The translations under genes were made by a program, and so were the position numbers. From assembly GCA_009693505.1 (NCBI GenBank), contig SHXD01000011.1, forward strand, positions 1-64,000: a stretch of DNA of 64,000 nt, read 5' to 3'. Shown here in pieces: positions 39,470 through 43,031 of the stretch. The notes beneath the pieces were generated by a model. It was not told the DNA's origin and made no database searches. It saw nothing but the letters and a program-made list of their open reading frames with translations. Numbering within the stretch: position 1 is the first letter of the stretch; the number at the start of each line of letters is the position of its first letter. This stretch comes from Limnohabitans sp. GTDB lineage: Bacteria > Pseudomonadota > Gammaproteobacteria > Burkholderiales > Burkholderiaceae_C.

Positions 39470-39646
39470 TTAATTAGGGTGAAAATAAATGGGGTCAGAG
39501 CAACATTAATTTCCAATAAGTGGGGGTAGAGGCTAATGAGGGCTTCCTCATATGGAGTACCAGAAATCGTCAGCCCCCATTAGCCTCTACCCCCACTTAT
39601 TGGAAATTAATGTTGCTCTGACCCCATTTATTTTCACCCCAATTAA
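39470..39646. repeat. Long inverted-repeat (hairpin) element, copy 1: two 75-bp arms and a 27-nt loop
   Basis: Left arm 39470-39544 and right arm 39572-39646 are reverse complements except for 2 mismatches; loop TCCTCATATGGAGTACCAGAAATCGTC; contains TGGGGTCAGAGCAACATTAATTT. Confidence 0.95.
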
Positions 39647-39650
39647 CCTT

Positions 39651-40301
39651 ATGCACATGCGAATTTTCTACACTTTCATTCTTCTGCTGATTGGACAAAA
39701 TGCCATGGCCATTGAAGAACCTGCTTTCAAGATTGTTCTTAAATATGAGGCGTTTGAAGTTCGGCAATATGCGCCCATGTTGGTGGCCGAAACGCTGATA
39801 GATGGCAATATGGATGAGGCTTCCAACAAAGGCTTTCGAAAAATAGCAGACTATATTTTTGGCAACAATCGCGCTAATCAAACGGGCACCTCTGCAAAGA
39901 TCGCCATGACAGCCCCAGTTACTCTTGAGCCTGTTTCTGAAAAAATTGCCATGACTGCGCCTGTAACCCTAAGTGCAACACAACAAGGCGGTGACATGGC
40001 TTCCGCCGTCAAGTGGCGCGTGCACTTTGTCATGCCCGCCAAATACACCTTGAGCAACATTCCTTTGCCCAACAATACAGAAGTGAAGTTGCGTGAAATT
40101 CCTGGAAAGTTTTTTGCTGTTCACAGCTATACGGGCTTTAATTCTGTATCGCAGGTTCAAACCAAGTCGGATGAACTCTTAGCTTGGCTCCAAAGTAAAA
40201 ACTTCAAACCATTGAGTAGCGTACAGCTTTCGCGATATGACCCGCCTTGGACCTTGCCGATGTTTCGGCGCAATGAAATCATGGTGGAGATAGAGCAATG
40301 A
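39651..40301 (+). CDS. SOUL-family heme-binding protein with signal peptide
   Basis: MHMRIFYTFILLLIGQNAMA signal peptide; YEAFEVRQYAPMLVAET..., KIAMTAPV repeats, ARYDPPWTLPMFRRNEI-like C-terminus (SRYDPPWTLPMFRRNEIMVEI). Confidence 0.9.
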   Translation: MHMRIFYTFILLLIGQNAMAIEEPAFKIVLKYEAFEVRQYAPMLVAETLIDGNMDEASNKGFRKIADYIFGNNRANQTGTSAKIAMTAPVTLEPVSEKIAMTAPVTLSATQQGGDMASAVKWRVHFVMPAKYTLSNIPLPNNTEVKLREIPGKFFAVHSYTGFNSVSQVQTKSDELLAWLQSKNFKPLSSVQLSRYDPPWTLPMFRRNEIMVEIEQ

Positions 40302-41983
40302 ACAAGGTTGACACACTCATTCAAAATGCACTGGTGTTTGACGGCTCAGGCGCCCAGCCACTCGTACAAGATTTGGCGGTTCATCAGGGAAAAATTGTAG
40401 GCATCGGCCAAAACTTAGCCTTCACTGCCGACCATTGTGTCAACGCAGCTGGCCTTGCTCTCATGCCCGGCATCATTGACTCGCACACACACTATGATGC
40501 TCAAATTACTTGGGACACTCGCGTTCGCCCCTCGCCCACTTTAGGCGTGACCACGGCGGTCATTGGCAACTGCGGCTTTACCATTGCACCTTGCAGACCC
40601 AAAGATCGCGAACTCACCATGCGCAACTTAACCCAGGTTGAGGGCATGTCTTTGCAAGTCTTGCAACACGGCATTGATTGGGACTTTGAAACATTTCCAG
40701 AATATTTGGCCATGCTTAGGAAAAAGCAATGCGCCATCAATGTGGCGGCCTACATCGGACACTCTTCTGTGCGTACATGGGTCATGGGAGAAGACGCCAA
40801 CAAACGCGAAGCCACTGCCTCTGAAATTTCCGAGATGGCCACATTGGTTCGCGAAGCCATGGCGGCAGGTGCCATCGGTTTTGCAACAAGCACCAGCCCG
40901 GCCCACAACGGTGAAGGCGGCTTTCCCATGCCATCGCGTTTGGCATCCGATGAAGAAATGATGCAACTGACTTTGGCCATGAGCAGCCAAGGTGGGGGCG
41001 TTTACATGGTGACCAAAGGTGGGCAAATGCCTGTGTCATTTTTAGAGTCGCTTGCTGCGGCCAGCCATCGGCCCGTCATGGTGGCAGCCTTGCTGCACAA
41101 CTCAACCAACCCGAGTGGTGTGTTCAATGATTTAAAAGCTATTACAGAAGCCAACCAACGCGGCCACAAGCTCACGGGCCAAGTTTCATGCTGCCCCTTA
41201 AGCATGGATTTCACGTTTGCTTCGGCCTACCCCGTTGAAGGCCTGAGCAGTTGGAAACCCGCTTTGGGTTTGCAGCACGCCGAGCTCAAAACTTGCTTGG
41301 CAAGCTCTGAATTTAGAGCCAAAGTCAAAGAAGAACTTTCACAAGCCGCCACCTTCCGCTTGTTCAACAACGAATGGGAAAAGGTTCACGTGGTTGAAAC
41401 TTTCAAGTCCGAGAACCTAGTTTATGAGCAGCAAAGCATTGCTGCCTCAGCATCGCAAGCAGGCTTAGACCCTCTCGACTTTGCATTGAATCTGGCGCTT
41501 GAAGAAGACTTGCGCACCGTGTTCACAGCCATGTTGCTGAACAGCGATACAGAAGCTGTGGTCAAGATGTTGAACCATCCGCACAGTTTGGTTTCACTGA
41601 GTGATGCAGGCGCTCACCTGACTTTTTTCAATGACGCTGGTTTCGGCTTGCATCTTTTGGGCTATTGGTCGCGTGAAATGGGCGCCATGAGCTTGAGCCA
41701 AGCTGTGCATCAACTCACTGCCCAACCTGCAGAAATTTTAGGTTTGAAAAACAGAGGTTTATTGCGCGAAGGCTATGCTGCAGACCTGCTGCTGTTTGAC
41801 CCCAAAACTGTGGGCCGCGGCCCTAAGAAGCGTGTGTTCGATTTGCCGCTGGGAGCACCAAGACTGCACACAGATGCCATGGGTGTTCACGGCGTGTGGG
41901 TGAATGGCCAACTCATTGCTGATCAAAATGGCATGCTAGAAAACACCAAGCTGGCTGGGGAACTGATTACTGATTTTTGCTAA
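40298..41983 (+). CDS. N-acyl-D-amino-acid deacylase / amidohydrolase
   Basis: MPGIIDSHTHYDAQITWD...TTAVIGNCGFTIAPCRP; SDAGAHLTFFNDAGF; overlaps the SOUL gene by 4 nt (ATGA). Confidence 0.9.
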   Translation: MNKVDTLIQNALVFDGSGAQPLVQDLAVHQGKIVGIGQNLAFTADHCVNAAGLALMPGIIDSHTHYDAQITWDTRVRPSPTLGVTTAVIGNCGFTIAPCRPKDRELTMRNLTQVEGMSLQVLQHGIDWDFETFPEYLAMLRKKQCAINVAAYIGHSSVRTWVMGEDANKREATASEISEMATLVREAMAAGAIGFATSTSPAHNGEGGFPMPSRLASDEEMMQLTLAMSSQGGGVYMVTKGGQMPVSFLESLAAASHRPVMVAALLHNSTNPSGVFNDLKAITEANQRGHKLTGQVSCCPLSMDFTFASAYPVEGLSSWKPALGLQHAELKTCLASSEFRAKVKEELSQAATFRLFNNEWEKVHVVETFKSENLVYEQQSIAASASQAGLDPLDFALNLALEEDLRTVFTAMLLNSDTEAVVKMLNHPHSLVSLSDAGAHLTFFNDAGFGLHLLGYWSREMGAMSLSQAVHQLTAQPAEILGLKNRGLLREGYAADLLLFDPKTVGRGPKKRVFDLPLGAPRLHTDAMGVHGVWVNGQLIADQNGMLENTKLAGELITDFC

Positions 41984-41991
41984 TGGGGAAG

Positions 41992-42148
41992 AAATTTAAT
42001 TGGGGTCAGAGCAACATTAATTTGGTCAATAAGAGGGGGCAGAGACTAAGGGGGGCTTCCTCATATGGAGTACCAGAAATCGTCAGCCCCCCTTAGCCTC
42101 TGCCCCCTCTTATTGGAAATTAATGTTGCTCTGACCTCAATTAAATTT
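41992..42148. repeat. Long inverted-repeat element, copy 2
   Basis: Left arm 41992-42057, loop 42058-42084 identical to copy 1, right arm 42085-42148; arms nearly complementary, related to copy 1. Confidence 0.94.
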
Positions 42149-43031
42149 TTGTTGGCGTGTTGAACTCTCGCCACAGGAGGTACAAACCGCTGCAAACCAC
42201 AATGACGGCTCCTAGCACCACGGCTGCATCGGGTATTTGACCGAATACTAGCCAGCCCCCAATGGCCATGTAAATGATTTGTTGGTACAAAAATGGGCCC
42301 AACACAGCGGCTGTGGCGAAGCGATGCGCAAGGGCCGAAGCGGTGTGGCCTAAGCCCCCTGTTAAGCCGGTGAGCAAAATCAGACTCCACATGAACCAAC
42401 CTTCTGGCGCTTGCCAAAACCAAATGGCAAACGGCGCCAATAACAGGGATGGCACAGCCGCTGAGGCCAGTTGCGTTGAAATAGGGTTATCACTGCTTGC
42501 CAAACGGCGCGTCATTAAATTGAAGACCGCATACAACAAAGCATTGCAGATGCTGAGAAAAATAGCAGGATGAAAACCGTTGCTGCCGGGCCGAATGATG
42601 ACCAACACACCCACAAAACCTATGCAGATGGCAGCCCACCGCTTAGAGTCAAGTCTTTCGTGAAGCAGCCAAGCTGAAATGAGCGCAATCAATATCGGAA
42701 CAGAAAACTGAACAGCACCCGTTTCGGCCAGCTGCAAATATTGCAGTGCAAAAAAGTTAAGCCCCGTCATTAGGGCTAACATCACACCACGCAACAATTG
42801 CAAGCGAGGGTTGTTGATCTTGAACAAGCTCACACCCATCGAGGGCATGAAAATAGCGGTGGTTAAGAAAGTGTGAAATACAAACCGCAACCAGACCACT
42901 TGCAAAACAGGCAAGCTTTGCACCAGCCACTTGGCACTGATGTCTAACACGGCAAACATCAGGGTGGTGACCGTGACCAAGGCAATGCCGATTTGACGAT
43001 GGCGAGCCGTATCGGAGAAAAGTTGGGACAT
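42141..43031 (-). CDS. EamA/DMT-family transporter
   Basis: About 10 hydrophobic segments, GVLVIIRPGSNGFHPA..., two EamA halves. Confidence 0.9.
   Translation of the reverse strand: MSQLFSDTARHRQIGIALVTVTTLMFAVLDISAKWLVQSLPVLQVVWLRFVFHTFLTTAIFMPSMGVSLFKINNPRLQLLRGVMLALMTGLNFFALQYLQLAETGAVQFSVPILIALISAWLLHERLDSKRWAAICIGFVGVLVIIRPGSNGFHPAIFLSICNALLYAVFNLMTRRLASSDNPISTQLASAAVPSLLLAPFAIWFWQAPEGWFMWSLILLTGLTGGLGHTASALAHRFATAAVLGPFLYQQIIYMAIGGWLVFGQIPDAAVVLGAVIVVCSGLYLLWREFNTPTKI

Follow-up and report, generated by a model that had tools for sequence, protein, structure and literature searches.

Long palindromes of Limnohabitans as a putative nested repeat of RAYT-type ends and a hairpin family with an apparently selected strand

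Results

Two palindromes in the window

The window, by which we mean the whole 64-kb stretch of DNA analysed here, holds two long palindromes, copies a and b (Table 1). Copy a is flanked by a phaR-like gene for a PHB regulator on the minus strand and by a SOUL-domain gene on the plus strand; the neighbours of copy b are an amidohydrolase gene on the plus strand and, on the minus strand, an EamA transporter gene. A first-pass annotation had described both as very stable hairpins with an invariant 27-nt loop and an arm core shared between them. The palindromes are at the positions it gave, and their 27-nt loops are identical. In copy a the arms are 97% complementary; in copy b a short asymmetric bulge divides the stem into helices of 32 and 31 nt. 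The arm core, GGGGTCAGAGCAACATTAATTT, occurs four times over the two copies, one of these with a single mismatch. Stability is reflected in RNA folding z-scores of -13.8 (copy a) and -11.6 (copy b) for the minus strand. Two points of the description needed amendment: the loop, invariant as it is in both copies, is structured and holds an apical helix of 3-4 bp, and the strand that was written out is the complement of the one that bears the signature of selection described below. Searched with a covariance model built for module B, the inner hairpin, the window gave matches at copies a and b and nowhere else.

Both copies touch neighbouring reading frames. The longest ORF of the SOUL-domain gene has its ATG at 39552, within the loop of copy a, which sits just upstream of a second, downstream ATG with a signal-peptide-like start. 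As this downstream ATG is also present in relatives with an empty site, the annotated ORF start may be wrong. Copy a may influence expression of the SOUL-domain gene. The EamA transporter ORF (42141-43031, minus strand) has its stop codon within the end of copy b (42141-42148), and the element may therefore have changed the C-terminus of the transporter.

Table 1. Coordinates of the two composite elements and their modules in the window
Feature	Position	Strand	Remarks
Composite copy a, A-B-A palindrome, 177 bp	39470..39646	.	Without counterpart at the site in G057 and G019
Arms of copy a, 75 nt	39470..39544 and 39572..39646
Module A, left end of copy a	39486..39512	+	The same ends border the RAYT gene at C38
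Module A, right inverted end of copy a	39604..39630	-
Module B hairpin, copy a	39527..39589	- (strand with the apparently selected fold)	Covariance model E 6e-14; selected-strand apex 5'-CGATTTCTGGTACTCCATATGAGG-3', strand from mismatch asymmetry
27-nt conserved apex, copy a, strand of the first-pass annotation	39545..39571	+
Composite copy b, 157 bp	41992..42148	.
Arms of copy b, about 65 nt	41992..42057 and 42085..42148
Module A, left end of copy b	41997..42023	+
Module A, right inverted end of copy b	42117..42143	-	One substitution: GAGGTCAG
Module B hairpin, copy b	42040..42102	- (strand with the apparently selected fold)	Covariance model E 2.5e-14
27-nt conserved apex, copy b	42058..42084	+

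Copies and modular build in the genome

The genome to which the window belongs (2.84 Mb in 107 contigs, 97% complete) yielded 19 matches to the loop at up to two mismatches and 43 to the arm core at up to three, while both patterns read backwards as controls gave none. A loop version one base longer added 14 matches, making 33 for both lengths together. This confirms that the observation is real and far beyond chance, and that the palindromes belong to a multi-copy family, as had been supposed.

Each copy is made up of an outer module A (TTAATTGGGGTCAGAGCAACATTAATTT) and an inner module B hairpin. Among the copies read from this genome are 15 A-B-A composites, one of them truncated by a contig end. 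The two modules are separable: some A copies stand alone, some B copies lack A, and some B pairs are accompanied by A on just one side. The A cores of copy a start at 39491 and 39604, a REPIN-like spacing of 113 nt.

At three contig-end copies (C11:110, C43:33 and C27:16487) the palindrome runs to or near the last base, and unique flanks prolong it (C11:1-355, C43:1-199, C27:16412-16698), likely as an assembly fold-back artefact. These three copies are what could be cited in favour of explaining the palindromes generally as assembly fold-backs, contig-end or amplification artefacts, an explanation whose probability we regard as negligible. The copies in the window are internal and bordered by unlike sequence, and homologous copies occur in complete genomes of a single contig (G006 and G180). 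For the window copies, their internal position and the relatives refute it.

Distribution of module B

The loop was found in 51 of 60 genomes of the same genus (relatives sample, own genome counted); 40 genomes from other families gave no match. A stricter loop pattern was present in 31 of 351 genomes of the family, representing 17 of 141 genera, and one genome, G164, held 61 copies of B. A covariance-model scan of 200 genomes of the order found no B outside the family. Among the matches listed, the named sources are mostly Limnohabitans (including Limnohabitans sp. Rim11 and MMS-10A-178), Rhodoferax (including Rhodoferax lacus), Polaromonas, Curvibacter and Comamonadaceae, with a few records labelled, as deposited, Cryomorphaceae, Akkermansia and Singulisphaera. 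Collections of phages, plasmids and viral contigs gave no match, and hence no phage or plasmid link. Rfam gave nothing above the gathering score at the elements, and its sub-threshold matches to miRNA-type hairpins are of a kind that any long hairpin produces. The loop sequence does not occur in the literature that was searched. B is apparently a separate, uncatalogued family, although it is set apart from the Beta-proteobacterial repeat element (BRE) by description only.

With genes predicted by a self-trained codon model rather than a published gene finder, 200 of 206 classifiable B copies lie between predicted genes. Neighbouring loops less than 400 nt apart are mostly inverted (+/-) pairs at 100-300 nt, typically 100-160 nt (overlapping loci counted). 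Genes enclosed by B+...B- at 0.4-4.5 kb are ordinary, with one restriction-modification pair and no transposase.

Several features of individual loci may be recorded here, with gene names assigned by eye. A few B copies stand at the same places across species in Rhodoferax-type genomes (L101, L102, L103, L104): beside sodB-like/xseA-like genes, beside box-type benzoate genes, and between acyl-CoA dehydrogenase-like and CoA-transferase-like genes. In L186 (5517-7381), a DNA methyltransferase-like gene and a small restriction-enzyme-like gene lie between B elements of opposite orientation. Around B pairs (L111, 5401-8745; L118, 5121-6989), a photolyase-like gene and a gene of 173-207 aa have swapped places between G001 and G030, and a block consisting of a B pair, a DUF1778-like gene and a second B pair is present in G001 only. 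Antitoxin- or toxin-antitoxin-like genes (MazEF-like, Phd-like, BrnA-like) directly adjoin B or A-B-A at L052 (6481-7387), L118 (955-1417) and L214 (3015-4096), which may be chance.

Fold of module B

A long complementary stem surrounds the apex in 242 of 250 collected B contexts. The stem is 18-30 bp long and free in sequence (mean arm identity between stem clusters 0.34), and the structured apex measures 25-27 nt. Covariation, checked by shuffle and slide controls, was 1.003 against 0.199 shuffled in 46 diverse B sequences; 97.4% of their cells pair, a figure biased upwards because only sequences with 16 or more of the 18 positions paired were admitted, and 389 cells carry double-sided changes. 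All 18 stem pairs vary on both sides in this set. The apical helix covaries as well (CG/GC, UA/CG/GC), while 18 apex positions and the internal loop are invariant. The apex sequence of the selected strand is CGAUUU-[NNGG]-UACY-[CCNN]-NAUGAGG.

In all pairwise comparisons of 50 composites, differences were two-sided in 11049 cases and one-sided in 1187, the pairs being non-independent. Arm-to-arm copying in folded DNA is known from quasipalindromes, and the two-sided excess, which is greater than would be expected from compensatory evolution alone, suggests such copying in the folded state here. Taken to its extreme, this would make the arms purely a product of replication, through hairpin template switching with an unselected fold, and the repeats inert RAYT debris. 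The great predominance of two-sided differences, beyond the usual symmetry of compensatory change, fits that idea. However, arm copying alone leaves unexplained the roughly 6:1 strand asymmetry reported below, as well as the 18 invariant apex positions and the covarying apical helix; a purely replicative origin of the arms is disfavoured, and we consider it improbable.

Strand asymmetry of module B

Stem mismatches are distributed unequally between the strands. On the loop strand, A.C outnumbers G.T by 215 to 38, and the same lean is seen in G.A versus C.T (59:8) and G.G versus C.C (21:6). Counted by stem cluster, 44 point in this direction, 2 in the opposite one and 14 are ties (sign test, 3e-11). 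An A.C mismatch on one strand is a G.T mismatch on the other, so it is the strand opposite the loop strand that keeps the tolerable mismatches, and this excess of G.T/G.U means that the fold of that strand appears to be selected, either as single-stranded DNA (ssDNA) or as an RNA independent of the adjoining genes.

The asymmetry does not follow the neighbouring genes. Single B copies are randomly oriented towards them (31 sense, 25 antisense), and a rerun with symmetric scoring gave 74:10 for gene-sense and 81:8 for gene-antisense copies, with no difference between the two (Fisher p 0.62), and 48:7 and 16:2 at convergent and divergent sites. Such independence from local transcription favours ssDNA over a UTR element, while the asymmetry by itself fits both ssDNA and an RNA with its own promoter.

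Module B could alternatively be a structured RNA. Transcription would then yield CGAUUU-CUGG-UACY-CCAG-YAUGAGG, and the long, dsRNA-like hairpin would act at mRNA 3' ends, in processing or in protein binding, having spread as a passenger. Selected-strand stem mismatches that are mainly G.U (215 vs 38), a covarying apical helix with an invariant internal loop, a stable RNA fold and the intergenic position of 200 of 206 classifiable copies are all consistent with it. However, single copies show no orientation to genes (31 sense vs 25 antisense), the wobble asymmetry is as strong in antisense copies, unlike what a cis-acting UTR element would give, and no Rfam family exceeds its threshold at the elements. 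Moreover, copies mostly form inverted pairs, so any transcript would hold one copy in the unselected orientation. We consider a structured RNA unlikely overall. For an mRNA 3'-UTR element in particular, the orientation counts and the equal asymmetry of antisense copies count against it.

A folded site that is strand-specific could also be a recombination site, attC-like or a substrate of some other site-specific recombinase, serving an enzyme that has no relation to the RAYT. B pairs do bound small cargo, namely restriction-modification genes (L186) and a DUF1778-like protein (L111), and G001 and G030 differ in how genes are ordered around these pairs. However, no integrase, recombinase or cassette array stood beside B in the inspected loci, flanking genes are mostly ordinary chromosomal ones, and homologous recombination between B pairs would rearrange genes too. 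We give a recombination site little credence. An integron-like cassette array was looked for specifically at C77 and in G001, and inspection did not support one.

Module A and the RAYT gene

The first-pass annotation had proposed looking for a Y1 or RAYT transposase bearing the same ends. One such gene exists in the same genome: the sole Y1_Tnp match, at C38:13235-13561, encodes an intact 232-aa RAYT protein that scores 79.4 bits against NCBIfam REP_Tyr_transpos (cut-off 80) and whose closest solved relative is TnpA_REP 4er8 (E 0.0015). Inverted copies of GGGGTCAGATCAACATTAATTT border the gene, at C38:12796(+) and C38:13622(-). Of 60 genomes sampled in the genus, 58 have a Y1_Tnp gene, usually in single copy, and inverted GGGGTCAGA ends stand on both sides in most of the inspected RAYT loci of the genus. 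The ends follow the transposase lineage, being ATCAACATTAATTT in the Limnohabitans lineage and ATCCCAATTAA in its sister lineage.

Because the outer A matches the inverted ends of the sole Y1_Tnp gene, putative mobilisation of A units in trans by the RAYT is well supported, as judged from shared ends and from presence and absence in relatives. The earlier proposal of a non-autonomous, REP/RAYT-type element mobilised in trans is thus the best reading of the outer A ends, but it misses the two-module build, with the invariant loop being part of B, a hairpin family in its own right. The A ends also contain the motif GGGGWSAS (GGGGTCAG). TIRtrons, which are tyrosine-transposase (Y1/HUH) genes with inverted ends carrying GGGGWSAS, were described in 2013 (Di Nocera et al. 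2013, PMC3733652), and by sequence module A is a further member of these TIRtron/TIRYT ends, a kind already known. A match to a catalogued end, which the first-pass annotation had named as grounds for withdrawing its idea, was therefore found in part, for A with the TIRtron GGGG(W)(S)A(S) ends.

Module B relates to the RAYT differently. No B was found beside the RAYT gene at the loci inspected in 30 genomes of the genus and about 20 wider genomes, B-rich ones included. The RAYT is the sole Y1 gene detected in G164, G180 and G283, all rich in B, so any Y1 enzyme moving B there would be the RAYT. Nearly all genomes of the family (326 of 351) encode a RAYT homologue but B is patchy (31 of 351), which limits the link between B and the RAYT to the composite. 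B presence was also considered as a marker of the RAYT, and is uninformative given that the RAYT is nearly universal in the family. The B loop strand (TGGGGTacCAGAaaTC) holds the A motif TGGGGTCAGATC plus two dinucleotide insertions, a post hoc observation that serves as a lead only.

Presence and absence in relatives

Comparison with relatives, also proposed in the first-pass annotation, revealed two sites at which close relatives lack the element. At site a in G057 and G019, both flanks lie close together and the element is missing. At C77, a block of 313 nt (an A end and a B pair) is missing in G057, where the flanks are directly adjacent, and G041 has a lone A end and no B pair at this site. 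At site b, the element is present in G005. The palindrome of copy a extends about 16-20 bp beyond the core; the right part of this extension resembles the site sequence in G019, and the left part is an inverted copy thereof. The extension could be an older, decayed A end or the result of fold-back copying of the flank.

Discussion

Proposed mechanism

We think it probable that the palindromes are a nested non-autonomous repeat of freshwater bacteria, in which A ends moved by a RAYT in trans have captured B, a strand-specific hairpin. The outer unit would be REPIN-like, with inverted A ends about 113 nt apart, and the single-copy HUH enzyme (the C38 RAYT/TIRYT) would most likely move it in trans as single-stranded DNA. 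B would belong to a family of strand-specific hairpins that is spread more widely in the Comamonadaceae, built of a fixed apex, an internal loop and a 4-bp apical helix atop a long stem of free sequence. It may also spread, usually as inverted pairs, and would have been captured between A ends in Limnohabitans. Arm symmetry could be kept both by quasipalindrome correction, by which a change in either arm is transferred to its partner in the folded DNA, and by selection on the fold of one strand. Copy number, the ends held in common with the RAYT, presence and absence in relatives, covariation and strand asymmetry are observed here; from them we infer that the RAYT would act on A-B-A units, that the selected strand would be ssDNA rather than a separately transcribed RNA, and that the arms probably stay symmetric in this manner.

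A rather unlikely variant is that B is a single-strand-specific hairpin site used or moved by another cellular enzyme and capturable as RAYT cargo. Such an enzyme, acting on one DNA strand, would recognise the apex and the fold alone, which would leave the stem free to vary.

Hundreds of natural hairpins that have one apex and free stems part apex recognition from stem recognition without design. The mismatch asymmetry is a computational readout of the selected strand of a palindromic repeat, independent of gene orientation, which could be extended to REPs, attC sites and MITEs. With the family present in single-contig genomes and in named sources, the mechanism may be testable at the bench.

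Comparison with known repeats

REP-type repeats are known by conserved stems that RAYT enzymes recognise. Module B has the reverse design, a conserved loop on a variable stem, and by the stem conservation that marks classic GTAG REPs it falls outside them (arm identity between clusters about 34%). In the copies inspected by eye, neither the A nor the B stems had a GTAG tetranucleotide next to them. The composite nonetheless resembles REP/REPIN-RAYT systems (PMC3116915, PMC2817692) in having a pair of inverted short palindromes, spaced by about 113 nt, on either side of a hairpin, in being a non-autonomous unit and in sharing its genome with a single-copy RAYT; it differs from them in that B was not found beside the RAYT gene.

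Other repeats share some properties of B. CGTC REPs are likewise palindromic, occur mostly as head-to-head dimers and have no dedicated transposase known (PMC3733652). However, they have a stem of 8-9 bp, a loop of 4-5 nt and a CCA tail (PMC3733652), whereas B has a free stem of 18-30 bp and a structured apex of 25-27 nt, and the CGTC at the edge of its loop varies (CGGC, CGTT), which places B outside their definition. The BRE is about 75-91 bp long and mostly intergenic (Hot et al. 2011, PMC3110155); it has been reported in Rhodoferax, Polaromonas and other Comamonadaceae, is abundant in Bordetella, is alignable over its length and forms close tandem copies (PMC3110155). In contrast, B is a hairpin in inverted pairs with an unalignable stem, a distinction made by description only, so that the two may be the same sequence. 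The 200-genome scan of the order found no B outside its family, which counts indirectly against identity with the BRE.

The closest parallel for the outer module is the TIRtron/TIRYT, a Y1/HUH gene between inverted GGGGWSAS ends that are also dispersed singly or as dimers (PMC3733652). Here, unlike in TIRtrons, the end dimer encloses a second, unrelated hairpin family, B, and within the bacterial family the ends differ from one RAYT lineage to another. Module B itself is apparently a REP-like repeat with new features: a fixed apex, a free stem and strand specificity.
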